DNA of 64,000 nt from Candidatus Helarchaeota archaeon (GTDB lineage Archaea > Asgardarchaeota > Lokiarchaeia > Helarchaeales > HEL-GB-A). A program made the translations under genes and the position numbers. Each line of letters starts with the position of its first letter. Position 1 is the first letter of the stretch. Of this stretch, positions 9,410 to 27,064 are shown piece by piece. The notes under the pieces were generated by a model, which did not search any database, had not been told where the DNA came from, and saw only the letters and a list, made by a program, of their open reading frames with translations. The DNA is taken from assembly GCA_013375455.1 (NCBI GenBank), contig JABXJT010000001.1, positions 108,738 to 172,737 on the forward strand, given 5' to 3'.

Positions 9410-9423
9410 AAAGCTGAAGGTTT

Positions 9424-10242
9424 ATGATCCCTCTTGAAATAATTATTTTTTTAGTTATAGGAGTCGTTATCGCTACTGAAGGGGCCCTATTGGGCGTTGG
9501 TGGCGGATTCATGCTGGTACCCATTTTTATTTTTATGGGATTTAATAGCATGTATGGAGATAACCTTTTAGCCCCCGTTTTAAGTTCATTCGTGATTATT
9601 TTTATTAGCCTTTCAGCGTCTAGTAAATATGGGTCCAAAAAGTTAATCAATTATCGATTAGGATTAAGCTATGCCCCTTTTGCAATAGCTGGCGCTTTTA
9701 TTGGAACGAACCTTTTAAAATCCCTAGCAGACCTACGCGAAACTGGTCACCTTATTTTTCAGAGTATTTTTACCATAATAATTGTAGTTATTGGAATCCA
9801 AATTATTTTTAGAAAGTATAATGAATCGCACTTCGCTAAGAATGATCATGGAACTAATAAAAAGATAAGATCTTATTATTGGGCTATTCCTTTTGGATGT
9901 TTAACAGGACTTGCCGCAGGTTTAACAGGAATAGGGGGGGGAATTATCGACGTTCCAGTAATCCATTTATTCTTTTTAGAAACAATGCACGTTACTATTG
10001 CCACTTCCTTATTCATTGTGATTTTCACAGCCTCCTTTTCAACACTCTCCAATTATTTTATTTATGCAGGAGTGTTGGACACATATTTTTTCATGGCAGG
10101 TCTTATAATCGCAGCGGGAGCCATAATCGGCTCTCAAATTGGGAGCCATATTCAAACACGTCTAAAGGGAAAAACATTGCGGATCATCTTTGGGTTTTTC
10201 GAGGTAGGCGTAGCCCTTCCCCTTCTTTGGTTAGGGTCATGA
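9424..10242 (+). CDS. TauE/SafE family permease (first copy)
   Basis: A 272-residue polytopic membrane protein with about eight spans and internal two-fold symmetry. The glycine-rich signature appears once per half: GVGGGFMLVP near residue 24 and GIGGGIIDVP near 170. The family exports sulfite, sulfoacetate or related organic anions, or takes up sulfonates; the substrate cannot be read from sequence. It lies 14 bases after the radical SAM gene and has a close paralogue 541 bases further on, separated by a small membrane protein. The two copies match closely in TM1 (GVGGGFM), YAPF and GSQIGSHIQTRLKG. Confidence 0.9.
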   Translation: MIPLEIIIFLVIGVVIATEGALLGVGGGFMLVPIFIFMGFNSMYGDNLLAPVLSSFVIIFISLSASSKYGSKKLINYRLGLSYAPFAIAGAFIGTNLLKSLADLRETGHLIFQSIFTIIIVVIGIQIIFRKYNESHFAKNDHGTNKKIRSYYWAIPFGCLTGLAAGLTGIGGGIIDVPVIHLFFLETMHVTIATSLFIVIFTASFSTLSNYFIYAGVLDTYFFMAGLIIAAGAIIGSQIGSHIQTRLKGKTLRIIFGFFEVGVALPLLWLGS

Positions 10243-10271
10243 TCTATTTAAAAGCAATAACTCCAAAAATC

Positions 10272-10282
10272 TTTATATATTT
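10272..10282 (+). promoter_or_regulatory. TATA box before the small membrane protein gene
   Basis: TTTATATATTT ends 51 bases before the ATG at 10334, which would leave a leader of about 25-30 bases. It suggests that the small membrane gene, perhaps with the second permease, has its own promoter. Confidence 0.4.
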
Positions 10283-10333
10283 ACAAAAAAAAACGATTAT
10301 TACTACCTAAAATGGTAAAAAGATGGTGTAAAA

Positions 10334-10726
10334 ATGGGCGAAACTGAACCAAAAAATGAAGCAATTTATGATGGCTGGTACGGCGTTGCTGAACCGGTCA
10401 ATAAATTTGTAGCATTTGTAACGATGGGACTCGGAGTTCTAGCCTATCTCGTATATACAGCGCCTCTTGCAAGAATTTGGCCAACACTTTGGGTAAGGAA
10501 TATTTGGATCCTCATCTTTCCAGTTGTTGGTGGCATACTTTACCTCATTATGGTGCAAAAATCAGTGGCAGACAAGGATTTAAATAAAAAGATGCATATC
10601 TGGTTGTTGATATGTACAGGCGTGTCATGCGTGGGCTACTTATGGGCAGCCGGTCTAATGATCTTGCAGTTCGTGATGGTTGGTATCCTCAGTGACAAAC
10701 CCTTCTGGAAAGCATTCGGCGAATAA
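10334..10726 (+). CDS. Small four-span membrane protein of unknown function
   Basis: 130 residues with hydrophobic stretches near 26-44, 54-74, 90-108 and 100-120, a short charged N-terminus (ETEPKNEAIYDG) and the charged loop KSVADKDLNKKMH in the middle. I do not recognise a family. It lies between two TauE/SafE paralogues on the same strand, 91 bases after the first and 57 before the second, so it may be an accessory subunit or simply co-transcribed. Real coding is supported by the membrane pattern, the start context and the upstream TATA element. Confidence 0.75.
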   Translation: MGETEPKNEAIYDGWYGVAEPVNKFVAFVTMGLGVLAYLVYTAPLARIWPTLWVRNIWILIFPVVGGILYLIMVQKSVADKDLNKKMHIWLLICTGVSCVGYLWAAGLMILQFVMVGILSDKPFWKAFGE

Positions 10727-10783
10727 AGGAATTGAACTTCAAATTCCCTAATTTTTTTCTATTTTTAAAAAAAGCTGAGTTTC

Positions 10784-11581
10784 ATGGAACCTGTCGAAAT
10801 TATAATTTATTTAATAGTGGGATTAGCTGCAGCTACTAGTGGTTCTTTGATGGGCGTTGGCGGTGGCTTCATGATGGTGCCCGTTTTTATTTTTATGGGC
10901 TTTAATGAGGGCCCGAACCTTTTAGCCCCAGTCTTGAGTTTATTTGTAATTATTTTTATTGCGACTTCAGCGTCTCTGAGATATAGTCGGGAGAAGACCA
11001 TCAATTATCGCTTGGGATTAATGTATGCTCCCTTTTCAATCATAGGTGCCTTTTTGGGGTCAATAATCCTTCTAGAAAGTGGATTGATAGATCCATTTAT
11101 TTTTAAAATCATTTTTAGCGTTTTAATAGTTGTCATCGGAATCCGGCTCATCTTACGGAGAAGGAAATCCAATTCTGAAGATCAAAGTGATTCCCGCGAT
11201 CAAAGATGGTCTTATTATTGGGTGATTTTATGGGGATTTATGACGGGATTGTCCGCAAGTATTGTTGGGATTGGTGGAGGGCTCATTGCAGTTCCGGTAC
11301 TTCATCTATTCTTTTCAGAAAGAATTCATGTCGCAATTGCAACCTCGCTATTTATTATGATCTTTACAGCAGCAGCTTCAACATTATGGCATTCCTTGAA
11401 TTTAATCGGCGAGTTAGATACATACTTTTTCATTGCTGGTCTTCTTGTAGCAGCTGGAGCAGTAGCTGGCTCCCAGATTGGAAGCCACATTCAAACTCGG
11501 CTAAAAGGAAGGACATTACAACTAGTATTTGGCATTTTTATGATAGGCATTGCCATTCCCCTCTTATGGCTTGGACCTTGA
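10784..11581 (+). CDS. TauE/SafE family permease (second copy)
   Basis: 265 residues, about eight spans, clearly a paralogue of the gene at 9424: both begin with a short xPxEIIIxL stretch, then GVGGGFM near 24, and share INYRLGL, YAPF, GIGGG near 170 and the end GSQIGSHIQTRLKG. The family transports organosulfur or other small anions. The pair probably arose by local duplication; divergence is considerable, so the copies may differ in substrate. The gene ends 1 base before the stop of the convergent CBS gene. Confidence 0.9.
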   Translation: MEPVEIIIYLIVGLAAATSGSLMGVGGGFMMVPVFIFMGFNEGPNLLAPVLSLFVIIFIATSASLRYSREKTINYRLGLMYAPFSIIGAFLGSIILLESGLIDPFIFKIIFSVLIVVIGIRLILRRRKSNSEDQSDSRDQRWSYYWVILWGFMTGLSASIVGIGGGLIAVPVLHLFFSERIHVAIATSLFIMIFTAAASTLWHSLNLIGELDTYFFIAGLLVAAGAVAGSQIGSHIQTRLKGRTLQLVFGIFMIGIAIPLLWLGP

Positions 11582-11582
11582 C

Positions 11583-12473
11583 TTAACTCTGACTGATTGC
11601 CATGGCGCGGACGATATCGTGTTCCGTGATGATCCCCACTAGCTTATCATCCTCAACAACGGGGAGCCCCCCGATGCTTTTCTTCTTCAGGACGGAGGCA
11701 CATTGGGTAATGGCTGCCTCGGGGTCAATTGTAATAACGGGACGCACCATGATGGAATTAAGTTTTTCGTGAAAAATGGGGTCGACGTTGTGGTCTTGGA
11801 ATAATTTCACCACGCCATCTTGGATAAAATACCGTAAGAGATCCTTTACGGTGAAATACCCGACCAAATTGCCATTTTCTACCACTGGTATTCGACGGAA
11901 TCCTTTCTCACAAATTATGTGTAGCGCATCCCCAATTGTCTGAGAAGGCGTGCAGGTAATGACGTTAGGAGTCATGATGTCCTTCACTTTTACCTCTAGA
12001 TTTTGCTTCGTGTCGGCAAGGAGAAAGGCAATGTGGCGCTCGGTAATAATACCAATTAAATCGCTATCCTTATCGATGAGCGGGAGCATTCCGATATTTT
12101 GTTCATTCATGATATGAACGCCAATGAAAAGCGGCGTCTCATGGTGTAATTTGATCACTGGACGTGCACGTGCAAGAACGGAAATGGGTTGCTCGTAGAT
12201 TTGATAGTAATGCGACGGGAATTTTGAGCAATATTCGCAAGACTCTCCCTTCAAGAGAAAATGGCAGATGTCAGATGTTGCAATAATACCTTTAATATGA
12301 TATTTATCCTGATCAGTAAGAATTACCAATCGTTTGTCACGTTTCTTCATTAATTTGAATACATCTAAAACTTTAGTGGTCTCAATCGCAGTTAACGGTT
12401 TTTTTTCACCGAAAAACATTATTTTTCCTTTCACGTTAATGAATTTCTCAACTTCAATCCGCGGTTTCCTCAT
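11583..12473 (-). CDS. Protein with four CBS domains
   Basis: Two CBS pairs fill the 296 residues. Each module shows the family pattern of a polar start and a GIIT or GYFT ending: residues about 15-75 (HIKGIIATSDI), 95-155 (DLIGIITERHI), 165-225 (NLVGYFTVKDLL) and 235-293 (KLVGIITEHDIV). CBS pairs bind adenine nucleotides such as AMP, ATP or SAM and report energy state. The linker after module 1 has CEYC, possibly a metal or redox site. There is no attached enzyme or DNA-binding domain, so the target is unknown. A TATA-like element (12489-12500) about 20 bases upstream supports the ATG at 12473. Confidence 0.9.
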   Translation of the reverse strand: MRKPRIEVEKFINVKGKIMFFGEKKPLTAIETTKVLDVFKLMKKRDKRLVILTDQDKYHIKGIIATSDICHFLLKGESCEYCSKFPSHYYQIYEQPISVLARARPVIKLHHETPLFIGVHIMNEQNIGMLPLIDKDSDLIGIITERHIAFLLADTKQNLEVKVKDIMTPNVITCTPSQTIGDALHIICEKGFRRIPVVENGNLVGYFTVKDLLRYFIQDGVVKLFQDHNVDPIFHEKLNSIMVRPVITIDPEAAITQCASVLKKKSIGGLPVVEDDKLVGIITEHDIVRAMAISQS

Positions 12474-12687
12474 CTACGCTGCCCCAAGGATTAATATACT
12501 TGTTTTTAATTGCTCATATTTAATTTCTTTTTTTTTTACGCTTTATTTTTATACGCTTGATAATTCAAGTTATCCTAATCAGTTAAAGGATTTACTTATA
12601 TTAAATTTGTTCCAAAAAAAAATTGATTAAATTCAAAGCTCTTTAAGTGAATCCCAGGGAAGTACCAAAGAATACAGTGGTGACAAG

Positions 12688-14352
12688 ATGTCTAATGAGT
12701 CCGACATTTTCGAGAAACCATCGGTGGAGCGGCTGGTGACCGGCGGGCTCTATGTTCTCATTTTTGGATTATTAGCTGCAGTACTTGGTTGGGCATTCGT
12801 GGCTGTTGCCAGTCAAGATCCACCACTTGGGGTAGGACCAGATCTATTATTCTATACAACTTCTGGAATGGCATTTCATGTCATAGCAATATGCATATCT
12901 ACTGGATTTCATCAAGCCCTCTCAAAATATCTTTCAGAAGCATTGGTCGAGTCTAAGGAGAAAGCACTTAAATACGCTAAAGCTGGTTTCCTTATCTTTA
13001 ATATCATCGGAATAATTTTCTTTACAATTTTTATCACAATTGCAGCTGTAATACTTCCCTATAACCTAGGCCTCGGCCTATTATTTGCAACATTGGCTGT
13101 CGCGTATTTTTTAACCTTTTTAAAAGACAATTTTATTGGAAATCTCGCTGCGGAACATCGATTTGATTATATTGGAAAAATAATTTTAATTGCCGGAATC
13201 ACTGGCACCATAATATCGTTTGGGATCCTGTTTCTCCTACCTGAACCCATTAATGCCTATCTGCTTCCGTTACCAATTACATTCAATCTCACTATTTCAA
13301 TTATTTTCGCCCTTCATTATGGTAAAAAAGTAATGCCATACTCATTCTCATCTATTTTTAGGGGTGCTCGAAGAAATGAACTAATTCAAGTAGTAAAATA
13401 TGGGCTATTTTGCACGGTTCCGAGCATCATTTTCTCAGGTGCAATCATGTGGATTCAGAATTTCTATTATATTGGATTTTTTTCTATCAGCAACCCCTAT
13501 ATCCCGGCAATGAATGGTCTAATTATTGGATATGCAGGCGTAGTTTTCGCAATTTGCCAATTTGGCTGGCCTCAAATTCCAGCCATCTCGGAAGCAAAAG
13601 CAATGGGCGACACTAAATTGATTGATGATTATATGAAAAATACCCTCCATACTGGCTTTAATCTTACCGCATTTTTTCTCATTTTTTATTTCGGAATGTC
13701 GAATATTTTGTTGCAGCTTTTTCATGGATCTAAATATCTCATTGCTCATTGGCCATTTTCCATATTATCGGTTTCTGTCGCAATACTTGGCATTGAATTT
13801 TTGATCTGCACGCTCTTAATGGGATTGGGCAAAGGTAAGCAAGCTGCATACCTCATTATATCTTTAGCAGTCATCCAACTCGTGTTAGTGCCTCTCCTAA
13901 TAATAATTTTACAAAGTGCCTTTGGGGTTGATGCAACTCTCTTCGCAGGACCTTGTTGCCTTTTAATCTCTGGTCTCGCCATCTTTCCCTTTGCCTATCG
14001 CTATATGGCCAGAAACACGAATACTCCAACAAAAGTTTATAGGGATATTCTCTGGAAGGGAATTGTCAGCGTTACTTTAACGTTAGTCTTTCATGCAATT
14101 ATAGATATGACGCTGTTAACCTTACTGGATAATCTGATAATTGCACTAGTCGTGCGGACATCCATCTTAATTGGCCTTTTTATTCTATTTATGCTAATTT
14201 TCGCAGGATTTGATGATAAAGATTTGGGAATGTATAAATTCATGGGGCCTGTCGCTGGCGGAATGCGGTGGTTATTGCACCATTCACCCTTCTACGAGAA
14301 AGAGGAAGACGAAGATGAGGTTGCGGAAATCAACAATGAGAGGCTCCCTTAA
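12688..14352 (+). CDS. Multi-span MOP-type flippase-like membrane protein
   Basis: 554 residues with about 14 hydrophobic spans and the general layout of polysaccharide or lipid-linked oligosaccharide flippases (Wzx/MurJ/MATE superfamily): a first span followed by an amphipathic stretch, paired six-to-seven-span halves, and an internal YGKKVMPYSF loop. The charged C-terminus (EKEEDEDEVAEINNE) is cytosolic. A GGTGA ribosome-binding element lies 4 bases before the ATG. Its stop is 2 bases before the TPR-JAMM start, implying coupled translation. Given the Asn-sequon-rich giant downstream, a role in surface glycan assembly is a reasonable guess but no more than that. Confidence 0.75.
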   Translation: MSNESDIFEKPSVERLVTGGLYVLIFGLLAAVLGWAFVAVASQDPPLGVGPDLLFYTTSGMAFHVIAICISTGFHQALSKYLSEALVESKEKALKYAKAGFLIFNIIGIIFFTIFITIAAVILPYNLGLGLLFATLAVAYFLTFLKDNFIGNLAAEHRFDYIGKIILIAGITGTIISFGILFLLPEPINAYLLPLPITFNLTISIIFALHYGKKVMPYSFSSIFRGARRNELIQVVKYGLFCTVPSIIFSGAIMWIQNFYYIGFFSISNPYIPAMNGLIIGYAGVVFAICQFGWPQIPAISEAKAMGDTKLIDDYMKNTLHTGFNLTAFFLIFYFGMSNILLQLFHGSKYLIAHWPFSILSVSVAILGIEFLICTLLMGLGKGKQAAYLIISLAVIQLVLVPLLIIILQSAFGVDATLFAGPCCLLISGLAIFPFAYRYMARNTNTPTKVYRDILWKGIVSVTLTLVFHAIIDMTLLTLLDNLIIALVVRTSILIGLFILFMLIFAGFDDKDLGMYKFMGPVAGGMRWLLHHSPFYEKEEDEDEVAEINNERLP

Positions 14353-14354
14353 GA

Positions 14355-15812
14355 ATGGAATTCGAAGAAAAAGCCAAAGCAGCTGAGATGGAAGGGGATT
14401 ACATTTCAGCAATTAAATACTATTTTCAAGCATTAGAATTAATAAAAGAAATGGGACTGGTGGAGGGGCTCCAATTTGATACTGGGAATGTTCTCAATCG
14501 AATTGCCAATCTTTATTCAGAAGTCGGCAATTTTAATTCAGCCATAAAATACTACATAGAAGCAAGTAACTATTATTTAGAGAGTGAAGAGCCCTTAACC
14601 AAGATTTACCGCCTGGTTGGTGAGTGCCATTCAAATATCGGAGCCTGCAATCTTGCAATGTCCAATTATGAAGCAGCAATTGATAATTTTCAACAATCAG
14701 TCGAAAAAATTCAAAAAGCCGCCGATTTAGAAGAAGAGATTCTCCGTAAATATGTTATTGAACGAGCTGTTCTAAATCAGGCATTATCAGCACTTGCTTT
14801 AATTAATTTAAACAAATTGAAGGATGTTTCATCTCTCTTGGATAAGGCCTCTGAATTGAGCTCGCGACATAAAGTAACAGGGATTGCTATTCACATTACT
14901 CAATTTCTTAAGAATATTATTACAAAAAAATATGGAGAAGCCCGAATTCTTTTACAAGAAAAAATAGAAGATGCTACTGAATCTCTATTATTCACCTCCA
15001 AATTGCGGGCAGCTATAATGGGGCTCATTCTGGACTTAGCAAGCAAGCACATCCCCGAAGCTCGCATTCTAATAGAGGATAAACTACTTGAAGAGAAGGG
15101 CGAAGTCATTCTCACAACAAAAATTTACCAAGATATGCTATTACATGCCCTAAGTTTTGCCAATAAAGAAATGCCCCGTGGGGAACAAAAAGAAGTATTG
15201 GCTCTAATTGTTGGTAAAATAAAGAAAGATGATGTGATTGTCTCTGAGATCGTTCCAATCGCTTCAGGATCAAAGGTTGAGGTAGAATTTCGAGAAGAAC
15301 ATTACACGAAAGCCGCAATGATCGACTCAATGGCGGCTGAACGAGGCGAATTCATTGTAGGATGGTTTCACACGCACCCAGATCTGGGCTTGTTCTTATC
15401 ACCAACGGATGTCATCAATCAATTAGGTTATCAAGCATTGAATAATAAGGCAATAGCCATCGTATTCGACTTCACCCAAATGACATTAACAACGCCAGGC
15501 TTCTCAATTTTTCGCTTGGATGACACTTCCCTCGGGGCTGCATCAAGCTATCATTCCGTCCGCTGGCGAATTAAAGACGCATCTAAAGAAGTTTTTGCTG
15601 AAAACCTCTCTCATTTTGATAAATTCATTACCAACCTGAATGAAATCATCCTTAAAAATAAACAAATGGATCTCACTCAATTAGCCAAGACGCTTAACCG
15701 CTCTGAAAGTCTTCTTGAAGAGATTATTCCCCAATTCATCTCCCTACGATGTCTGCCTAACACCCAATATGATCCAAACACGAAAAGAATTTCTTTAAGA
15801 GAAATTGCTTAG
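14355..15812 (+). CDS. TPR repeats - JAMM/MPN metalloprotease - winged-helix-like fusion
   Basis: Three parts are visible in 485 residues. Residues 1-265 are helical repeats of TPR type (DYISAIKYYFQALEL, NFNSAIKYYIEAS, NYEAAIDNFQQS). Residues about 270-400 are a JAMM/MPN domain with a complete zinc protease motif: Glu280 (KEVLALIVG), then His339-x-His341-Pro342-x6-Ser349-x2-Asp352. Residues 435-485 look like a winged helix (DLTQLAKTLNRSESLLEEII). JAMM domains cleave isopeptide bonds of ubiquitin-like modifiers in Rpn11, CSN5 and archaeal/bacterial homologues. Helical repeats plus winged helix next to MPN recall the PCI and MPN subunits of the proteasome lid and COP9 signalosome, here in one chain; homology of the flanking parts to PCI is inference. 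It is translationally coupled to the flippase gene. Confidence 0.88.
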   Translation: MEFEEKAKAAEMEGDYISAIKYYFQALELIKEMGLVEGLQFDTGNVLNRIANLYSEVGNFNSAIKYYIEASNYYLESEEPLTKIYRLVGECHSNIGACNLAMSNYEAAIDNFQQSVEKIQKAADLEEEILRKYVIERAVLNQALSALALINLNKLKDVSSLLDKASELSSRHKVTGIAIHITQFLKNIITKKYGEARILLQEKIEDATESLLFTSKLRAAIMGLILDLASKHIPEARILIEDKLLEEKGEVILTTKIYQDMLLHALSFANKEMPRGEQKEVLALIVGKIKKDDVIVSEIVPIASGSKVEVEFREEHYTKAAMIDSMAAERGEFIVGWFHTHPDLGLFLSPTDVINQLGYQALNNKAIAIVFDFTQMTLTTPGFSIFRLDDTSLGAASSYHSVRWRIKDASKEVFAENLSHFDKFITNLNEIILKNKQMDLTQLAKTLNRSESLLEEIIPQFISLRCLPNTQYDPNTKRISLREIA

Positions 15813-16306: not shown

Positions 16307-16870
16307 ATGGATGAAAAAGAGGATGATATAATCACCATTAAAATTCATCAAAGCCAATTTGATCTCCTTTATAGCGAGTTGCTCAGTACTCTTTTTGAGG
16401 GAGATGTTAAGCAAATGGTGGATGTGCTCTATCGCACTGTGAGAGTCCCCTTTCGGAACAAAGATGGACAACTAGCAATCATCATTCTAGATAGGCGACG
16501 TCAAAAAATCATTGCTGCATTTCACATCAAAATGCGGGCTGGTGGGAATATACAATCGATTGAATCCATTCCACTAGATCTCAGTTCTGATGGACAGATA
16601 CTATCTGATACTTTTAAAGTAAAGCATACCGAGTTTCCCGAAGCATTAGAACGAGCAAGAATCCTTCTTCAAAACGAGCATGGAGAACTTTGGACATTAA
16701 TCGTCGTCGATTTCATCCAAATTGCTAAACTCTATAGTTTGCTTGATTTCGAGCCCACAAAACAATTAGTAGGGAAAGTTACTAAATCCGCCCTAGATCA
16801 TATAAAGCAGGGGAAGATCAAATTAATTCCCGTCCCTGAGGTTGTCAATGCTCTTGAGAGAATAGTATAA
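16307..16870 (+). CDS. Unrecognised cytosolic protein, coupled to next gene
   Basis: 187 residues without signal peptide or membrane span. An alternating pattern of strands and helices is visible: ITIKIHQSQFDLLYSELLSTLF, then LAIIILDRRRQKIIAAFHIKM, an acidic loop, and LWTLIVVDFIQIAKLYSLLD. This may be a small alpha/beta domain, but I know no family for it. TGAGGA (16295-16300) sits 6 bases ahead of the ATG as a ribosome-binding site. The stop TAA shares its last base with the ATG of the next gene, so the two proteins are probably made together and may form a complex. Confidence 0.72.
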   Translation: MDEKEDDIITIKIHQSQFDLLYSELLSTLFEGDVKQMVDVLYRTVRVPFRNKDGQLAIIILDRRRQKIIAAFHIKMRAGGNIQSIESIPLDLSSDGQILSDTFKVKHTEFPEALERARILLQNEHGELWTLIVVDFIQIAKLYSLLDFEPTKQLVGKVTKSALDHIKQGKIKLIPVPEVVNALERIV

Positions 16871-18366
16871 TGGATAGAGAGGTCAAACTCTTGCAAGATC
16901 GCTTAATAATACAGAAACTACGCAAGTTTGCTTTAAAAGAATACAAAGAAAAACGCCCCACCGAAATTTTCGGCTACCGGGTCAAAAAGTCAATCCTTTT
17001 ACAACGTGGATTCGGACCTTCCATCATTCTCTCTGGTCTAAAGGGAAAGGTTGCTCCTTTTCTAATTTTAGCGAATTATGGTGACCATTATCGGCTGTAT
17101 TTCATCCTTGAAAATGGCGTTACTCTGAATGCCATCAATATTCCAGCAAAGGAATTCGAGCGAGAACGCCTTAAGTTCCAAAAGGCAACAACCCAATTAT
17201 TTCAAATTCCCCGCCCTGAAGTACCCAAGAAGAAACTTGAAAAGATCAAGAAGCAGATCAATGAAAAATTTCATCAATACGTGGCTTTAATTGAAAAACA
17301 GACTTCATGCAAAATAAAAAATGTACCAATAATAACCATTTATCAATCTCCCGTGGAATCTAAATTAGTCATTAAACGCGAGCGGGATTTTATAAAACTC
17401 CCTTTAGAATTAATTTCACACAAATTAATTGATGGATTTATTGCAAGAGAGGCTTATAGACAATTATTCCCAGTATTTATTCGCAAGACGGAACATTCAA
17501 AACTCTTCGGATTAATTGGAACTTTCTTTTTACTCCCAAAAACTCTTAAAGAAGACTGGTTACAATATTGGGAACCTAAAGTAAAATTTAAGAAAAAACT
17601 CACTCAAATAAATGAGCCCCTTTTCAACCTCCTCCTACGGTTTCTCTGGTACCTTGGAAAGCATGAAACTTCACCCTTCTCAGATGCTCAACTTAAGAAA
17701 ATATATAAAATTTTTCCTAAATTAGCAAAAAAAACCGAAAATTTACCCGATATTGCTGCCCAATGCTATTTACAATTGGCTAATCATAAAGGCTATTTTA
17801 TTCTAAAAGCCTCCTTCTTTTTTATATTAGCCAATCGACTAAAAGACGCAAGGCAAGCGTTAAAGGAGCTCTCTAAATTCACTCAATCAGATGAGATTCG
17901 TGATCTGAGAATCCAATGTGAATATCTATTAACCTTTCAATTGGCGAAAATCTATTCCAGTGATTTAAATTTGGAATCTTACGCCCCAGATGTTCAAGGA
18001 CTTTTCAGTGAAATCTTAAACCACATCAAAAACCAAGTACTTGAAGTAAAACGTATTCATAAACAAAAAGGGTCCCCCTCTAAATCCATTAAAATTAAGT
18101 TTAATATAAGAAATCTCTCCGATTTAACCTTGAACAATATTAAGCTTGTTGATAATCTGCCCAAGAAGTCTCAAGCCGAAGTGGTAGGTCCAAACAGTTT
18201 TAATTTTTCTCAGCTTAGCCCAAAACAAAATGTTACTTGTAAATATAAAATCACTTCTAACGTGCCTCAAAAAATTTGGTTTAAAAATGGTAATCTCACT
18301 TTTCAGGATTCCCATGGCAATCATTACGTTCAAACTATTTCTTCAACGGTACTTCACATCGAATGA
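16870..18366 (+). CDS. Unrecognised protein with C-terminal beta-sandwich
   Basis: 498 residues. The N-terminal 110 residues look alpha/beta, followed by a basic coiled segment near 115-145 (KKKLEKIKKQINEK) and a mostly helical middle near 180-390. The last 90 residues or so read as one beta-sandwich (SIKIKFNIRNLSDLTLNNI, ending in NLTFQDSHGNHY) with the spacing of CARDB/DUF11-like or adaptor-ear-like domains. No signal peptide or clear span is seen, so it should be cytosolic despite a domain type often found outside cells. Its start overlaps the stop of the 187-residue gene by one base, and the giant surface protein gene follows after 129 bases. Confidence 0.7.
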   Translation: MDREVKLLQDRLIIQKLRKFALKEYKEKRPTEIFGYRVKKSILLQRGFGPSIILSGLKGKVAPFLILANYGDHYRLYFILENGVTLNAINIPAKEFERERLKFQKATTQLFQIPRPEVPKKKLEKIKKQINEKFHQYVALIEKQTSCKIKNVPIITIYQSPVESKLVIKRERDFIKLPLELISHKLIDGFIAREAYRQLFPVFIRKTEHSKLFGLIGTFFLLPKTLKEDWLQYWEPKVKFKKKLTQINEPLFNLLLRFLWYLGKHETSPFSDAQLKKIYKIFPKLAKKTENLPDIAAQCYLQLANHKGYFILKASFFFILANRLKDARQALKELSKFTQSDEIRDLRIQCEYLLTFQLAKIYSSDLNLESYAPDVQGLFSEILNHIKNQVLEVKRIHKQKGSPSKSIKIKFNIRNLSDLTLNNIKLVDNLPKKSQAEVVGPNSFNFSQLSPKQNVTCKYKITSNVPQKIWFKNGNLTFQDSHGNHYVQTISSTVLHIE

Positions 18367-18495
18367 CATTCAATCATGTACCAATACAAAAATTGCCCAT
18401 ATTTATTTCAAATCCACATCCATAAACTATTTATTTCAACTTTCCATTCCAATCCAAAAGACATTTTCTTCTTTAGTTTTTGTGAGTTGATTTCG

Positions 18496-21400
18496 ATGAA
18501 AAAAAGATACCTCCTACCTCTCCTAATTATAATTTTTCTAATATTTCCGCTCATTATTTCTAACCTAAATTCTAAAAGCTCAGCTGATCACATAGTAAAT
18601 CCTATTAACGTCCCCCATCCTATTAATTCCAAGTCATATTCTACAATAACACCCGCGTTGAACGTGACAGAACGTGCCAACCGAACCGATGCTGGTCAAA
18701 CCGTTCTCCTTAATTATAATGCAACTTCTGGTACTACCACAAATGGTTCTGCCTACGCCATTCTCCCCCCAAGTTGGGTAGGAAACGAAATCTCCGTCGA
18801 TCTATACAACATTTATGAGAATCGATGTTGGAATTTAAACCCTGAGTTTAATGGCCCAGATTATGGTGGAGTCAGCAACAATATTTCAGTTGTATTCAAC
18901 TATGATACCAATCAAATTGCTGGATTACGGATACAAAATGGCTCTGATAAGATTTTTTATATGCCGTTCGTTTTTGGGAAAATCACTAATGCTACAAATG
19001 ACTTCGATAGTACTTCTATTAAGGATGAAATTTTAAATCGTACTTTAAATTGGATGGGATTGGATACTTCAGCATCTGTCCTTATTATAGATGATGATCG
19101 GGAGAAAGATGGTAGAACTGATAGCGCAGATAATCCGTATGAATGGTATTATGAAACCAGTCTAACTAACCTGGGGTTTCCTGGGCCTAATGTGGATACA
19201 CATGAAGCTCCTCCGCCACCAAATCCCCCTGCCTTTCCGGGGTATGATTTGATAATTTGGGAAACGGGAGTTGAATGGCAAAGTATTGAGGACCCAAGCT
19301 ATTATCAAGATGATGTTATCGCGTATTTGAATCAGGCAGGCGCGCAGAATCTGATTGTTTCGGGTGAAGATGTTGGATATTGCTTGGACGAAGATGATGC
19401 TGACTATGGCTCTTCGGATGTGGTGGGAAGTCATTTTTATAATAATTTCTTAATGTCAAACTTTGTCTATGATGATGCAAATACTGACGTTGTTTTAGGA
19501 ACTACAGGCGATCCGATTGGCGATAATTTATCCTTTTTCATCAATGGAACAGGTACTTGGTTTTACCCTGATGTAATTATGCCACATATTCAGAACGATG
19601 ATACTCTAATTTATAATTGGACATCAGATGAATTTGGTAATCAGAATAATGACGATTGGTATCATCGCCTTGAAAAAAATGGGCATGGAACTAATGATGA
19701 TTGCGCGCTCTTGTTTATTGAAGATGAAAATGATGATGGATATGATACGGGTGATAAAGTATGGATTGAGCAAGAACTATATGTCGATCGATCAGAATTA
19801 GTTTGGGCAGGGATTAACTTTGATTATTGGGCGTATAATACATGGGCTCCATTTACTGGAAATTTCAGAATTTATATTTCAATTAACGATACAATAATGT
19901 ATTCAAAGTCGCTTACTACCATATCCGCCCATCGTCAATGGTTTAATACTGGAATGATACCCATAAACATCTCAGCTATTCCACTTCCAAATATTAATAT
20001 CAAGATTGGCTTGGAAGTGGTTTATGGAAGTAATTACCATCCAGATATGAAGTCAACGGTGATGATTGATAATTTTAAATTGTATCTTCAAACCAAAGTA
20101 ACACCTTCTCAAATAAATTTGAAAATGGATGGCATAGATGTGGAAGGAGGTTTGGGTTATGGCCTTTGCAATCTAACACCAAGTAATCCTTGGACAAATT
20201 CACCCGTTCAAGTTAATTTTTCTTGGAATCCCACTCCCACGCCTGATCCAGATTTGGACATAGAAGTTAGTTTTAAGTGTGATACAAACCTCTTCGCCTC
20301 AAAAATCGGTCAAACCCTTTACACTGCTGATCCAACTAAATATGGGCTCCTTCTCGATGTAGATCAGGGAATAAATACTTCGTGGTCATTCCAATATTAT
20401 GTAACTCTTCCCAATGGATATTGGAACCATTCTTTTACAATTTTTCATCCAACTGATTGGAATGTTACCTTTGTGTCTGAGCCCCAGTTACCTGCTGTTA
20501 ATAGAATCGGTGATTGTGTGAAAGGGCTCGATAATATTACCATCCCTGCTACAAGCATAACCACTTCTCCCGATGGTTATTGGCGTTTTGAAGCGACCTC
20601 CCTCAATTATCTTCAAGATATTCAACCCCAAGTTTACAATGGAACCCATTGGATTAATTCAGGAGACTTTTTTGTGACGAATCTCACACGAATCACTAGT
20701 TACATCTCCAATGCAACGGGACCGCCTCCTAATTTAGCCTCGAGTACTATTAATCTTACCATTCTCGATCCAAATGGACAACCATGGTATACTACTACTT
20801 CTGCAACTTATTCAAATGGATGGGCAATCTTCCCCAATTTAACCATTTTCGGGTCTAATACGACAGCAGGACAACATGCAGTCTCGGTATCTTGGAATAG
20901 TGGGGTCGAAGGCGGGTATGGCGATTCGAGTTTTAATATTGTACATAATTCAGAATTAGTGTTGGCTAAACCGACAGACGCAATCGCAGACCAAACAACA
21001 GAAGTGAACTTCGGAGAATTATTTTTAATTCGTATTGGCCTCAACGACACTGACCGAAATGAATTAGCAAAGGGCATCGATGTGACGCTAAATTGGACTC
21101 AAGGCGGAGGGCCGGTTCAAATGAATTTGACAGATCTGGAAACTGGTCAGTATGAAATTGTCCTAGATACTTCAGACCTCCCAACAATAGATAATTATAC
21201 AATTATAATAAATTCCTATAGCCCATACTTTACTAACGCTACTTATACCTTAAATCTAATTGTCACGACTGAAACGCTCCTTTCCTCACCTCAGTTTCCA
21301 AAGGTACTTTCTGAATGGGGTGAAAATATTACTATTCAAGTAAATTACCAACGTGCTCTAGATGAAGTCGGGCTTAATAATTCAGTTGTACTTGTAAACT

Positions 21401-24400
21401 GGACACTTGGCCCTCACACCATTGTAGAAATAGGAAATGGGCAATATGACATTGAAATTGATCTTTCTTATGCAGAAATCACTGAATATACCCTTGTAAT
21501 CAACGCTACAAAACCGAATTCTGCATATAAAGAATTGAATCTCAAATTAGAAGTAAAATTAATTGATACCGAATTAACTTCTCCAGATTATCCGCGTGTC
21601 ATTGTAGAATGGGGGAACAATGTTACTCTTTCGATTAATTATCGGACCTTGACAGGATTAACCGGAATTAACAACTCCATAATTTCACTTAACTGGACAC
21701 AGAACTATTACAATATAGCCGAATTGGGAAATGGAATTTATCAGATCGAATTAAACACGAGTTGGTGTAACATACGTGATTACATATTAATGATAAATGC
21801 TTCCAAGCTCTATCACCAAAATAGGACGCTTTTTATTACAGTTCGGATTAACGCCATTGAAACAGAACTCATCTCACCAGATTATCCTCGCGTGATTGGC
21901 GAATGGGGCAATAACATCACTTTCTCAATTAATTATCGAACTCTTATTGGACTAACCGGTATTGAAACCGCACAAATCTCTATCAATTGGACACAAAATT
22001 ACTATACCATTATTGATTCGGGGAGTGGCATTTACCAGATTGAACTGAACACCAGCTGGTGCAACATACAAGACTATCAATTGATAATTAACGCATCAAA
22101 ATCTAAACATACCAATGCCACAATTTCAATTACAATAGAGGTTGATTCAATTGAAACGGAATTAATATCACCCGATTATCCACGCGTTATTGGCGAGTGG
22201 GGTAGTAATTTAACGCTCACAGCCAACTTCCGAACTATACCTGGATTAATTGGAATTGATAATTCATTAATTACTATCAACTGGACTCCCGGGTATTATT
22301 CAATTATTGAAATGGGAAGTGGATTGTATCAAATAGAACTTAATACTAGTTGGTGTAATTTACAAGATTATCTTTTAGAGATCAGTGCCTCCAAAACTAA
22401 ACATGAAAATAAAACAATATTTATCACTATAGAAATCAATGCCATTGAAACAGAACTTATTTCTCCTAATTATCCACGTGTTATTGGGGAATGGAATACA
22501 AATATCACCATTACCCTCGAATATCGTACCATTAATCCACACGGCATAAATAATTCTGTAATTTCTATTAATTGGACCCAGAACTATTATTCTATCAGTG
22601 AGATTGGAAATGGATATTATCAAATAGAACTAAATACCAGTTGGTGTGATACTCAAGAATATTTGTTAGAAATCAATGCGTCAAAACAATATCACCAAAA
22701 CAAAACGCTTCGCATAACCAATGATATTATTCCCTTTGAGACCGAATTAATTTCCGATAATTACCCCAGAACCATTGAAGAATGGAATAGTAACATTACA
22801 ATTGAAGTAACTTATCGCACTGTAACTGGATTGCAGGGTATTCCAGGGGCAACAATCACTGCTAACTGGACCTTAGGATATTATACAATTATCGAAATAG
22901 GAAGCGGTATCTATCAAATTGAGTTAAACACTAGCTGGTCCAGTATCGGAGAATATATTTTAGAAATCAATGCCTCAAAACAATATTACCTCGCGAAAAC
23001 ACTCAGTATTAAAATCGACATCACTAGTATAGCAGCTGAGTTAGTATCGCCGAATTATCCAAGGGCAATAGGTGAATGGAATACGAATCTTACTATTGAA
23101 CTTACCTACCGCACTGTCGAAGGTTTGCAGGGAATTCCAGGGGGCACGCTGGTAATAAATTGGACTTCAGGTTACTATACGATAATAGAAGTTGGGAGTG
23201 GCGTCTATCAGATTGAGTTGAATACGAGTTGGTGCAGCATTCAGGAGTACATCTTAGAAATCAATATTTCCCAACTCAATCATGAAGCTAAATCATTAAG
23301 TATTACTATTGACGTCACCACAATAGCGACAGAGTTAGTTTCCCCAGATTATCCACGAGCTATAGTTGAATGGGGCTTCAATCTTACCATTGAGCTCACA
23401 TACCAGACAGTCAATGGGTTAATGGGCATTCCAGGTGCAATTATTGATTTGAATTGCACGCCTGGGTACTACAATATTTTGGAGATTGGAAGTGGGGTTT
23501 ATCACATCGAGCTAAATTCGAGTTGTTACCCACCAGGAGAATATTTACTTGAAATGAACGCCTCGAAACAAAACCATCAAAATAGAACCTTACGGATAAC
23601 CATTCAAATTGATCCCGTTAAAACTGATCTAGTCTCTGATCAATACCCCAGAGTCATTGCAGAATGGAATTTCAATGTCAGTATGATCGTTAATTATCGA
23701 GCTGTAAGCGGTGCGCAGGGAATTTTAAATGCCTTTATTTCCATCAATTGGAGTCTAAGTGCATTTACAACTCTCGAATTGGGCAATGGACTATATCAAA
23801 TAGAACTTAATACCAGCATCGTTCCCGGTGAGTATCTCTTGGAAATCAACACATCAAGACAGTTCCACGAGAATAAAACAATCTTAATAATAGTGCAAGT
23901 AAATTCCGTTGAAGCTGAACTCGTTTCAAATGCTTATCCGAGAGTTGTTATTGAATGGGGCAAAAATATTACAATTGAAGTGAATTATCGGACGGCAAGC
24001 GGGCACTATGGCATTAATAATTCGCTAATAACCGTGAATTGGACCCTTGGTTATTTCAGCATATCCAGCAGTGGAAGTGGTCTTTATCAAATCGAGTGCA
24101 ATACCAGTTGGTGTGATATTCGAGAGTACGTGATAGAGATTAACGCCTCAAGACTCTATCATTCTAATAGAACGATCCGAATCGTAGTCCAAATTAACGT
24201 CGTAGAGACCGTCTTGATATATCAATCCATCGAGTCAATCCCGTATGGCCAAAATGCAACAATTTACCTGAAGTATACCGACTTAACAGGGAACCCAATT
24301 CCATCTGAGTCAGATGGATCCGATATTTTGACCATTAATAATACTCACTGGGTATCTTATAATGCTTCAAACGAATATTCACTATCAATCGTAGTTGCAT

Positions 24401-25887
24401 CGACTGGACTGAACCAATCGGATTTATTGAACATTACAGCATCAAAATCAAAGTATAAACCTCAATCAATTTTAGTCTTTTTAACTTATCGTCCCATCTT
24501 CACTTCATTTACAAATCTCAATAATACGATAATATCCTTACCCGTCGAAGAATCCACCTTCATTCTCGTTATTTATAACGATACGGATTTTAACCAAGGT
24601 ATTTCAGGTGCAAATCTCACATTTTACGGTTACAATAACATCTCTTTTACGGATTTAGGGAGTGGGAATTACCGGATCAATATCAATGGTACTAGTATTG
24701 CTGATGCTTATTCGATTCTCGTGACGATAAAGAAATTTGGCTACGTGGAAAACAGCATTCAATTTGTAGTTCAAGTTAAAGAATGGACTGATTTCACAAC
24801 TTATACTTTCTCGTCCCCTGTCGAAACACGCCCTGTCGGATCTTCCGCCACTTTTTCCGTTCTATTGGAAGATGATTTCACCGGTACTACATTTGAAAAT
24901 ATAAGCGTATTCTATGTTTGGGAGTTTGGAACAGGGAATTTAACCTACATCGGTAATGGAAATTATTCCTTTACATTAGATACTACGGGGAAAACACCTG
25001 GTACCTATATAATTACTATTAATGCGACTAAGGATGACCATCTTTTAATGAGTGAAACCGTGAGGCTGGTAATTACCAGCGGGGAAGTGCCTTGGTGGGT
25101 GCAATTTTCGTGGATATTCGGAATTCTTGGAGCCATACTTGCAATTGGAACTGGATATATTGCTCGGAATAGATGGAGGCAGCGCCATTGGGAGAAAAAA
25201 GTGAAACATATCTATGTGCTCACAAAAGTAGGCATTCCATTATATGATAAACGCCTTGCTGGCATAGAAGCCGTTGATCCCAGCCTTGTCACGAGCGCTC
25301 TAATCGGAATCTCATCAATTGTCCAAGAAATCGTTCATTCCAAGCGAGTCCTCAAGACAATTGACCACATGGATAATAAAATTTTATTCCAACATGGATT
25401 TCATATCATTGTAGCCATTCTAGCTTCAGTAGATCTACCAGTTATTCGGAGAAAGTTGGCTCAATTTACTAACCGATTTGAATACCATTACCAAAAGGAC
25501 CTGAGCGAGTGGAAGGGTGACGTGGATGCCTTCTTTGGGACTAGTAAAATAATTAATGAATTCTTTCCAATTGAAGAATATATCAAGGATAAAGAAATTT
25601 CTGCTGAATGGGCTCTCGAGAATCTCTTTAGTGTATACGGATTGCCTGGGATTGTTACACTTCTTGCACTAGAGCTAGGCCTGAAAGAACCGAAGAAAAT
25701 TACAGCTGGAACTGGTGTTGCAGAAAAGAAAATTCCAATCATCCTTAGAACTCTTCAAGACCTTCTATTGATCGATTCTCAAAAGACTCTCACGAAGAAA
25801 GGTAAAAATGCAATTGCACTCTATAAAAAGAGAAAGGAGCGGTACATTAGAATTCTTCGAATGTCAAAAGAAAAAGAAATGAATTAA
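18496..25887 (+). CDS. Giant receptor-like surface protein: Ig-like repeats, one span, longin-like and winged-helix-like tail
   Basis: 2463 residues from ATG 18496. The frame is open 40 codons further upstream, but the signal peptide starts here (MKKRYLLPLLIIIFLIF). Outside part: a domain with LIIDDDR and NLIVSGEDVGY (19080-19620), resembling ThuA/glutamine-amidotransferase-like domains of secreted proteins; beta-rich linkers; ten tandem repeats of about 98 residues (21270-24210); and further Ig-like domains. Asn-x-Ser/Thr sequons are very frequent. A single span (near 25100-25165) is followed by basic residues, placing the last 230 residues in the cytosol. That tail starts IYVLTKVGIPLYDK, then a helix, the strands LKTIDHMDNKILFQHG and IIVAILAS, and a final helix pair, as in longin domains; a winged-helix-like end follows (VAEKKIPIILRTLQDLLLI). 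Domain names are inferred by eye. Confidence 0.85.
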   Translation: MKKRYLLPLLIIIFLIFPLIISNLNSKSSADHIVNPINVPHPINSKSYSTITPALNVTERANRTDAGQTVLLNYNATSGTTTNGSAYAILPPSWVGNEISVDLYNIYENRCWNLNPEFNGPDYGGVSNNISVVFNYDTNQIAGLRIQNGSDKIFYMPFVFGKITNATNDFDSTSIKDEILNRTLNWMGLDTSASVLIIDDDREKDGRTDSADNPYEWYYETSLTNLGFPGPNVDTHEAPPPPNPPAFPGYDLIIWETGVEWQSIEDPSYYQDDVIAYLNQAGAQNLIVSGEDVGYCLDEDDADYGSSDVVGSHFYNNFLMSNFVYDDANTDVVLGTTGDPIGDNLSFFINGTGTWFYPDVIMPHIQNDDTLIYNWTSDEFGNQNNDDWYHRLEKNGHGTNDDCALLFIEDENDDGYDTGDKVWIEQELYVDRSELVWAGINFDYWAYNTWAPFTGNFRIYISINDTIMYSKSLTTISAHRQWFNTGMIPINISAIPLPNINIKIGLEVVYGSNYHPDMKSTVMIDNFKLYLQTKVTPSQINLKMDGIDVEGGLGYGLCNLTPSNPWTNSPVQVNFSWNPTPTPDPDLDIEVSFKCDTNLFASKIGQTLYTADPTKYGLLLDVDQGINTSWSFQYYVTLPNGYWNHSFTIFHPTDWNVTFVSEPQLPAVNRIGDCVKGLDNITIPATSITTSPDGYWRFEATSLNYLQDIQPQVYNGTHWINSGDFFVTNLTRITSYISNATGPPPNLASSTINLTILDPNGQPWYTTTSATYSNGWAIFPNLTIFGSNTTAGQHAVSVSWNSGVEGGYGDSSFNIVHNSELVLAKPTDAIADQTTEVNFGELFLIRIGLNDTDRNELAKGIDVTLNWTQGGGPVQMNLTDLETGQYEIVLDTSDLPTIDNYTIIINSYSPYFTNATYTLNLIVTTETLLSSPQFPKVLSEWGENITIQVNYQRALDEVGLNNSVVLVNWTLGPHTIVEIGNGQYDIEIDLSYAEITEYTLVINATKPNSAYKELNLKLEVKLIDTELTSPDYPRVIVEWGNNVTLSINYRTLTGLTGINNSIISLNWTQNYYNIAELGNGIYQIELNTSWCNIRDYILMINASKLYHQNRTLFITVRINAIETELISPDYPRVIGEWGNNITFSINYRTLIGLTGIETAQISINWTQNYYTIIDSGSGIYQIELNTSWCNIQDYQLIINASKSKHTNATISITIEVDSIETELISPDYPRVIGEWGSNLTLTANFRTIPGLIGIDNSLITINWTPGYYSIIEMGSGLYQIELNTSWCNLQDYLLEISASKTKHENKTIFITIEINAIETELISPNYPRVIGEWNTNITITLEYRTINPHGINNSVISINWTQNYYSISEIGNGYYQIELNTSWCDTQEYLLEINASKQYHQNKTLRITNDIIPFETELISDNYPRTIEEWNSNITIEVTYRTVTGLQGIPGATITANWTLGYYTIIEIGSGIYQIELNTSWSSIGEYILEINASKQYYLAKTLSIKIDITSIAAELVSPNYPRAIGEWNTNLTIELTYRTVEGLQGIPGGTLVINWTSGYYTIIEVGSGVYQIELNTSWCSIQEYILEINISQLNHEAKSLSITIDVTTIATELVSPDYPRAIVEWGFNLTIELTYQTVNGLMGIPGAIIDLNCTPGYYNILEIGSGVYHIELNSSCYPPGEYLLEMNASKQNHQNRTLRITIQIDPVKTDLVSDQYPRVIAEWNFNVSMIVNYRAVSGAQGILNAFISINWSLSAFTTLELGNGLYQIELNTSIVPGEYLLEINTSRQFHENKTILIIVQVNSVEAELVSNAYPRVVIEWGKNITIEVNYRTASGHYGINNSLITVNWTLGYFSISSSGSGLYQIECNTSWCDIREYVIEINASRLYHSNRTIRIVVQINVVETVLIYQSIESIPYGQNATIYLKYTDLTGNPIPSESDGSDILTINNTHWVSYNASNEYSLSIVVASTGLNQSDLLNITASKSKYKPQSILVFLTYRPIFTSFTNLNNTIISLPVEESTFILVIYNDTDFNQGISGANLTFYGYNNISFTDLGSGNYRININGTSIADAYSILVTIKKFGYVENSIQFVVQVKEWTDFTTYTFSSPVETRPVGSSATFSVLLEDDFTGTTFENISVFYVWEFGTGNLTYIGNGNYSFTLDTTGKTPGTYIITINATKDDHLLMSETVRLVITSGEVPWWVQFSWIFGILGAILAIGTGYIARNRWRQRHWEKKVKHIYVLTKVGIPLYDKRLAGIEAVDPSLVTSALIGISSIVQEIVHSKRVLKTIDHMDNKILFQHGFHIIVAILASVDLPVIRRKLAQFTNRFEYHYQKDLSEWKGDVDAFFGTSKIINEFFPIEEYIKDKEISAEWALENLFSVYGLPGIVTLLALELGLKEPKKITAGTGVAEKKIPIILRTLQDLLLIDSQKTLTKKGKNAIALYKKRKERYIRILRMSKEKEMN
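21271..24210 (+). repeat. Ten tandem coding repeats of about 98 residues
   Basis: Each unit opens with a TELISPDYPRVIGEW-like stretch, then an NITIEVNYRT-like strand, G-x-x-G-I, INWTxxYYTI, GSGIYQIELNTSW and a closing INASK. Units differ most at the first and last copies and least in the middle, as expected from stepwise internal duplication. Every unit carries several Asn-x-Ser/Thr sequons. They are probably Ig-like or fibronectin-like domains forming a stalk. Confidence 0.85.
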
Positions 25888-26011: not shown

Positions 26012-27064
26012 ATGCCAGCTAAAAAGAAGAGTAAGAAAAAGGAAGAATCAACTGCAGATGACGAATTTGAGCAAGAAATCATAGGGGAAGAAGAGTCAAC
26101 AGAGTCTCAAGGGATTAGTACTGCAGAACAGACAAACCTCTCTGAATTACCGGGAGTTGGACCAAAAACTGCAGAAAAATTGAAGGAAGCGGGATTTCAA
26201 ACAGTAATCTCAATTGCAGTTGCAAGTCCGGCAGAATTGGCGGCGGCGGCGGAGATTGGGAATGCAACCGCCCAAAAATTGATTGTTGCTGCTAGACAAA
26301 AAGCTGAGTTCGGATTCAAACCTGCGGATTTGTTGTACAAACAAAGATTACAAGTTGGGAAAATTACAACAAGTTCAGAGAATCTCGATGGTTTAATAGG
26401 CGGCGGTGTAGAAGCTCAAGCAATAACGGAAGTTTTTGGGGAATTTCGCACGGGAAAGACCCAGATCGCGCACCAACTTGCCGTAAATGTTCAATTACCC
26501 AAGGAAAAGGGTGGACTGAATGGCGGCGTTATTTATATCGATACTGAAGGCACATTTCGACCTGAACGCATCGTTCAGATGGCCACCGCCATTGACGAGG
26601 ATCCTGGAAAAATTTTATCAAGAATTCAAGTCGCGAGAGTTTATAATTCGGACCATCAAATCTTTGTAACCGATAAGGCTCAAGAAATTATTTTAGAGAA
26701 CAATGTGAAACTCATAGTGGTGGATTCAGTAACCTCCCATTTTCGGGCAGAATATATTGGTCGCCAAAATCTTCCAACACGTCAAGGGAAGCTTAATAAA
26801 CACCTTCATGCATTGCAACGGATGGCTGATATTTATAGTTGCGCAGTATTTTTAACCAATCAAGCAATGGCAGATCCCGCCGCGTTTTTTGGAGACCCAA
26901 CAAGAGCGGTTGGAGGCCACGTCTTGGCACACGTCCCACAAACACGACTTAAATTGAGAAAGAGCAAGGATGATCGCCGGGTTGCAAAATTAATCGATAG
27001 CCCCAGCCTTCCCGAAGGAGAGTGCATTTTCACGATCAAAGCAGAGGGTATTCGGGATCCTTAA
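26012..27064 (+). CDS. radA: RadA, archaeal RecA/Rad51 family recombinase
   Basis: RadA forms filaments on single-stranded DNA and carries out strand exchange in homologous recombination. Residues 44-66 are the helix-hairpin-helix of the N-terminal domain (LPGVGPKTAEKL). The ATPase core shows Walker A GEFRTGKTQ (143-151), IYIDTEGTFRPERI and Walker B LIVVDSVTSHFRAEY, and the L1/L2 loop regions follow (RQNLPTRQGKLN, NQAMADPAAFFGDP). Walker A has Arg-Thr where Gly/Ser-Gly/Ser is common. A lysine-rich and acidic N-terminal tail of 40 residues precedes the core. The hisA-like gene starts 17 bases after the stop. Confidence 0.97.
   Translation: MPAKKKSKKKEESTADDEFEQEIIGEEESTESQGISTAEQTNLSELPGVGPKTAEKLKEAGFQTVISIAVASPAELAAAAEIGNATAQKLIVAARQKAEFGFKPADLLYKQRLQVGKITTSSENLDGLIGGGVEAQAITEVFGEFRTGKTQIAHQLAVNVQLPKEKGGLNGGVIYIDTEGTFRPERIVQMATAIDEDPGKILSRIQVARVYNSDHQIFVTDKAQEIILENNVKLIVVDSVTSHFRAEYIGRQNLPTRQGKLNKHLHALQRMADIYSCAVFLTNQAMADPAAFFGDPTRAVGGHVLAHVPQTRLKLRKSKDDRRVAKLIDSPSLPEGECIFTIKAEGIRDP

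Follow-up and report, generated by a model that had tools for sequence, protein, structure and literature searches.

A giant surface protein of Helarchaeota with a longin and winged-helix tail, related longin-tailed membrane proteins across Asgard genomes and a possible tie to small GTPases

The DNA examined here is a 64,000-nucleotide stretch of a Candidatus Helarchaeota archaeon genome (GenBank assembly GCA_013375455.1, contig JABXJT010000001.1, positions 108,738 to 172,737 of the forward strand), referred to below as the window. It encodes a protein of 2463 amino acids (aa) whose computed architecture is that of a single-span surface protein ending in a cytosolic longin domain and a winged helix, and longin tails of this kind were found on many other Asgard membrane proteins. 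We tentatively propose that TRAPP-like longins form the ends of a general class of Asgard surface receptors, along with many multi-span proteins, and would couple the outside directly to membrane control by Rab-like GTPases. For the longin itself, the most likely role is that of a membrane-tethered platform for a small (Rab-, Rag- or Arf-like) GTPase, since longins of this fold group often act in this way, a longin fused to a GTPase was found once and the longin is the part that stays constant among these proteins; GTPase binding is predicted with roughly even confidence.

Architecture of the window receptor

The Helarchaeal protein was translated from the ATG at 18496, within an open frame spanning 18376–25887 on the forward strand. 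The starts of three relatives (P0004, P0006 and P0007), judged by eye, are in register with this codon; P0002, a gene caller's version, begins further inside, without the signal peptide. Besides the signal peptide, hydropathy identified a single span (Table 1), and weaker hydrophobic peaks at residues 2296 and 2377 fall inside the folded tail. N-x-S/T sequons number 93 before the span, whereas 500 shuffles preserving the composition averaged 35 and never exceeded 49; the net charge is −137 before the span and +14 after it. No sequon is found in the 240-residue inside tail; composition alone expects 0.64 there, and the orientation therefore rests on the outside sequon excess, the signal peptide and the charges. 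Computed from hydropathy, charge and sequons, the layout is that of a type I membrane protein (signal peptide, outside domain, one span, cytosolic tail). An earlier note on this DNA, made from the sequence alone, had likewise placed the tail inside the cell, and no sign of an outside placement was seen. The protein is most likely a type I surface receptor or adhesin, for which ligand binding and signalling are predicted.

For the tail, an AlphaFold model (predicted local distance difference test score, pLDDT, 88.6) gave a longin followed by a winged helix, with the longins of TRAPP Trs23, Fuzzy, Sec22b and VAMP7 as the best structural matches. In tail numbering, strands (E) and helices (H) of the longin run E13–20, E25–30, H39–57, E65–68, E71–77, E81–87 and H92–108, with shorter helices to 133, which is the longin order β-β-α-β-β-β-α(-α); solved longins were matched across the whole domain, C-terminal helix included. 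Sequence searches gave a weak, independent match of the tail to TRAPPC1/Bet5 (E 0.025). Sybindin, Fuz_longin_1 and Intu_longin_1 were matched, likewise weakly, by 6, 4 and 3 of 28 aligned members, respectively (best E 8e-4, 0.002 and 0.004), and the window tail itself matched no curated longin family at E 0.1. The winged-helix family PF24409 scored 28.5 bits for the tail alone (cut-off 27) and 24.8 for the whole protein. By model and structural comparison, the longin and winged-helix reading of the tail put forward in the earlier note was confirmed, no other fold being modelled with confidence.

With a winged helix at its end, the protein might also be read as a membrane-bound transcription regulator that binds DNA upon contact, either at the membrane or after cleavage. 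This is very unlikely: only 3 of the 28 aligned members matched PF24409 at E 0.1, the part after the longin has no detectable sharing with that of the commonest receptor class, class B (see below), and winged helices often bind proteins. The tail had been suggested to link cell-surface contact to trafficking or transcription; trafficking stays plausible from the fold and from mixed gene-neighbour evidence, whereas for transcription nothing positive was found beyond the winged-helix fold.

The remaining order of parts held for the signal peptide, the ten repeats and the single span, but less well for the identities given to head and stalk. The head, described as ThuA-like, found no sequence match: none of five aligned heads matched Pfam at E 0.5, and a search among PDB sequences for ThuA- or class I amidotransferase-like entries returned nothing relevant. 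In the stalk, the ten strong repeats are accompanied by three weaker matches. Matches of these repeats to Ig-like families were weak, and on sequence the Ig-like reading is a weak one.

Five further proteins of 1664–3311 aa carry tails 68–73% identical to the window tail; one is named Helarchaeota, one Promethearchaeota, and P0006 corresponds to L001 of the Helarchaeota genome Hel_GB_A. Among relatives with a precise name the nearest, P0003, comes from a Helarchaeota genome, and these relatives mark the source as Helarchaeal. The number of strong repeats ranges from 2 to 19 in these relatives. Mean pairwise identity among the six proteins is 76% (71–84) for the longin, 62% (55–75) for the winged helix and 58% (51–72) for the juxtamembrane outside part; for the head it is 60% (57–65) in five proteins, P0005, with a cut head, being excluded. 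Conservation is highest in the longin, above that of head and stalk.

Longin tails across Asgard genomes

With the window tail as query, a match at E 1e-6 or better was obtained in 116 of 148 sampled Asgard genomes. Among the matches listed, only the longin part was covered, except in the Hel_GB_A relative, which matched over the whole tail; Hel_GB_A alone gave 30 matches at E 1 or better. Open frames were fetched for a chosen part of the longin matches and spans were called by hydropathy only. The occurrence of the tail on other Asgard membrane proteins, raised in the earlier note, was borne out, both on single-span receptors and on multi-span proteins.

Longin-tailed proteins of about 750–3000 aa in other Asgard genomes have an outside rich in sequons, a span immediately ahead of the longin and an extension at the C-terminus. 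In addition to class A, that of the window receptor, three classes were distinguished. Class B (11 loci: L059–L067, L074 and L075) reaches 3031 aa, with 278–478 residues after the longin; class C (L068–L071) measures 757–797 aa; and class D (L072 and L073), found in 2 of 227 genomes, measures 1056–1093 aa. Further receptors in Hel_GB_A are L039 (2449 aa) and L043 (complete as L169, about 1716 aa). One extra outside hydropathy peak is present in L060, L064 and L169; contig ends truncate L066, L074 and L075; and in L063, L071 and L072 the chosen start codon gives no signal peptide. Almost all sequons precede the longin, with counts before it and from it onwards of 108 versus 4 (L059), 47 versus 2 (L065) and 18 versus 0 (L070). 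Across the classes, the longin is the constant inside part, whereas the head and the C-terminal extension vary.

At E 1e-40 or better, class B matches occur in 50 of 227 genomes, one in each of 49 and two in the other. Its protein relatives number 171 at E 1e-10 and include Lokiarch_08060 (Lokiarchaeum GC14_75, 2731 aa); among the best 120 of the 171, depositors' names cover Loki-, Hod-, Hermod-, Thor-, Heimdall- and Odinarchaeota. The longin and about 280 further inside residues are 58–75% identical to the reference in 22 aligned loci and 31–54% in remoter ones. These figures bear on the view that such proteins are structural adhesins, in which the outside would be the functional part and the longin tail would merely dimerise and anchor. 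A stalk of 2–19 strong repeats on a constant tail in the close relatives of the window receptor would suit an adhesin, as would the single match per genome in nearly all class B genomes. The longin is nevertheless conserved above head and stalk, and class B keeps its long inside part at the identities just given, so that this explanation appears unlikely.

The closed genome G096 (one contig, 4.36 Mb) gave 43 longin matches, around which 40 regions were taken; one of these, L198, gave no longin frame. Its 44 longin open frames comprised 28 spanless proteins, 10 multi-span proteins with the longin last, the receptor of 3031 aa, one longin–small GTPase fusion, two proteins with one to three spans before the longin and two with a span after it. 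Coat-like or scaffold proteins might read a longin tail of this kind as a sorting or assembly tag and place diverse membrane proteins in membrane zones, in which case it would be a zip code and not a signalling module. That the longin ends many different membrane proteins, in G096 the 10 multi-span proteins and the giant receptor, speaks for such a tag, and so does the presence among the structural matches of Sec22b and VAMP7, whose longins are used in coat recognition. The spanless majority in G096 does not fit it, and the class-specific C-terminal extensions suggest more than a tag; we consider it possible but rather doubtful.

Multi-span proteins ending in the same longin (L003–L007, L020–L038, L173–L178, L183, L186 and L209) have 4–11 hydropathy peaks and measure about 325–850 aa where complete. 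Scans of four (L050, L076, L077 and L078) gave no Pfam match, or weak ones below cut-off. In spanless relatives from Hel_GB_A, the longin occurs together with UFL1/DDRGK-like and PCI winged helices, an FG-GAP/BBS-like propeller, TPR or V4R. The UFL1/DDRGK-like and PCI winged helices are found in L041 and L045, the former also containing the FG-GAP/BBS-like propeller and a weak zinc-ribbon match.

Relationships among the longins

To relate the longins of receptors and other proteins, a quick tree of 85 sequences over 135 columns was used, in which 34 of 82 inner branches are open. The receptor label requires 8 changes on this tree, at least 4 of them forced by starred branches, with labels taken from crude hydropathy rules that are wrong at least for the multi-span protein L078, labelled a receptor. 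Class A groups with class C and multi-span proteins (support 87, not starred), and class B with spanless longins (support 99, starred). By hhalign, the longins of classes A and B are related (98.75) and their post-longin parts are not (0.12). From the tree changes and the unshared post-longin parts, receptors seem to have acquired the longin tail, or exchanged it, on several occasions. The minimum of four changes between receptor and other topologies is also what a portable tag would be expected to give.

Small GTPase genes near longin genes

Two observations favour the longin as a GTPase platform: the longin–GTPase fusion of G096, and the class D receptors, whose tails are 92% identical and which in both genomes are immediately followed by a GTPase gene in the same orientation. 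Rab-like genes are found near several longin genes, and in Hel_GB_A one sits immediately before the gene of a spanless longin protein (L054). In class B, a GTPase of 360–407 aa with an N-terminal extension, which reads as putatively roadblock-like, is encoded 0.8–2.7 kb upstream in 9 of 21 loci (L117–L120, L122, L125, L128, L065 and L061; cut off at 313 in L061), divergently in 8 and in tandem in 1.

Other observations weigh against a GTPase platform. The 64-kb window contains no small GTPase gene. A GTPase gene was present in 7 of 20 class B loci, compared with 5 of the 20 controls (Fisher p 0.73). Per base, 197 kb of flank contained 7 and 340 kb of control 6 (Poisson p 0.06), and enrichment near class B is thus not significant by frequency. 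The recurring type and position of the GTPase are only suggestive of a link, and common descent could account for them. Longins also serve in SNAREs and coat adaptors. In strain MK-D1, according to the accessible text of PMC10933270, GTPase genes generally lie outside operons with longin genes.

Should the longin indeed serve as a GTPase platform, the tail would dock a small GTPase at the membrane, probably as a longin dimer. Contact with a ligand outside, or clustering, through the long, length-variable and presumably glycosylated stalk would gather the tails, which in turn would recruit or switch the GTPase at the same membrane patch and lead to local remodelling of membrane or cytoskeleton. 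The winged helix after the longin would most likely be a second protein-binding module.

Comparison with known longin proteins

The TRAPP subunits TRAPPC4/Trs23 and TRAPPC1/Bet5 are soluble and reside in a complex, whereas the window longin belongs to the tail of a giant surface protein with one span. In the longin SNAREs Sec22b, VAMP7 and Ykt6, the longin is followed by the SNARE helix and then the anchor, with nearly no outside part; the window protein instead has a signal peptide, about 2200 residues outside and a span, and then the longin. It does not have the order of parts of a longin SNARE, since the span precedes the longin and a winged helix follows it. NPRL2 and NPRL3 of GATOR1, which are soluble, carry a longin and then winged-helix parts, an order shared by the window tail. 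At E 0.1 the 28 aligned members gave 17 listed families, none of them an NPR2/NPR3 entry.

Asgard archaea are the closest known prokaryotic relatives of eukaryotes, which use the longin fold to steer vesicle traffic. Were the proposed coupling true, a prokaryotic surface-to-trafficking system older than eukaryotic endomembranes would exist, and it could be the source of the longin SNAREs or coat adaptors of eukaryotes. With longins found as tails of giant surface proteins, one class of them in 50 of 227 genomes, some Asgard longins may work at the cell surface. The small size and confident model of the window tail put pull-downs and structure determination within reach.

In the accessible parts of the literature, an 'NPRL2-like longin domain' and an enrichment of longins are reported in Ca. 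Lokiarchaeum ossiferum (PMC9834061), 41 longins are predicted in Loki (PMC10933270) and Asgard longins are also mentioned in PMC11291895 and PMC7997004. Asgard proteins with longin and roadblock domains (PMC10933270; PDB 8yqg, a Lokiarchaeota roadblock-longin protein) differ from the window protein in that no receptor is described in the text available there, and the terms 'transmembrane' and 'membrane protein' are absent from the main text of PMC10933270. No description of a longin-tailed surface protein, Lokiarch_08060 included, was found in the open-access text searched, a scope outside which most subscription papers and bioRxiv preprints fall. The earlier statement that no described system has this order of parts fits that literature on Asgard longins, and we rate as new, within the same limits, the use of this known domain within a receptor. 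Cryo-tomography of Ca. Lokiarchaeum ossiferum, in the portion of PMC9834061 available, showed complex surface proteins on a single membrane, for which longin-tailed receptors are candidates.

Genomic locus and other window genes

Directly downstream of the window receptor lies a radA-like recombinase gene (Table 1). Such a gene was present in 29 of 30 class B loci (L079–L108), the miss being L103, which is without downstream DNA, and in none of 20 control regions (L129–L148). In 21 longer class B loci (L121 being excluded as too short), radA is found downstream on the opposite strand in 17, at distances of 77–875 bp; L124, L125, L127 and L128 have no radA. In Hel_GB_A, the receptor contig ends about 200 bp past the receptor gene, and another contig has, close to its start, a radA 81% identical to that of the window, with a relative of window gene 27943 among the genes that come after it. 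Because both adjoin radA, the Helarchaeal receptor and most class B receptors occupy a common genomic place, though their longins and extensions differ. The class B outsides resemble the window repeats (e.g. E 2e-19, L061). The window head was not found in them, and among 20 outsides only the window's own and P0006 carry it. Exchange of tails at a fixed locus is one possibility for this likeness despite differing tails.

Table 1. Coordinates of the window receptor, its parts and the adjoining recombinase gene
Feature	Position in window	Strand	Basis and remarks
Longin-tailed single-span surface protein, 2463 aa	18496..25887	+	Open frame, hydropathy, five close relatives
Signal peptide, ~residues 1–25	18496..18570	+	Hydropathy; relatives' starts
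Conserved head domain, ~residues 184–385	19045..19650	+	Conservation among relatives
Ten strong tandem repeats of 97–98 aa, residues 924–1900	21265..24195	+	Repeat search
Membrane span, residues 2200–2223, then basic stretch	25093..25164	+	Hydropathy
Longin domain, residues 2236–2360	25201..25575	+	AlphaFold model, structural comparison, weak sequence matches
Winged-helix domain, residues 2370–2462	25603..25881	+	AlphaFold model, structural comparison
radA-like recombinase gene, 124 bp downstream of receptor	26012..27064	+	Family match; also adjoins most class B receptors

A relative of the window receptor beyond the close set, L167 (genome G108), is split across two open frames on the minus strand (9776–13408 and 8666–9772); its contig also carries a radA-like gene about 7 kb downstream of it, past intervening genes, and other genomes have intact receptor copies.

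Elsewhere in the window, a second giant surface protein of 1392 aa (46366–50544) has no longin match; it carries a signal peptide, NosD/beta-helix repeats, a TSP3 repeat and one span near its end, followed by a short tail. Upstream of the receptor, a protein with TPR and JAB/MPN domains is encoded at 14355–15812 (PF01398, 46.6 bits, cut-off 22.5), and a 498-aa protein at 16870–18366, ending 129 bp before the receptor start, has a C-terminal TRAP_beta match (24.6 bits, cut-off 22.4).
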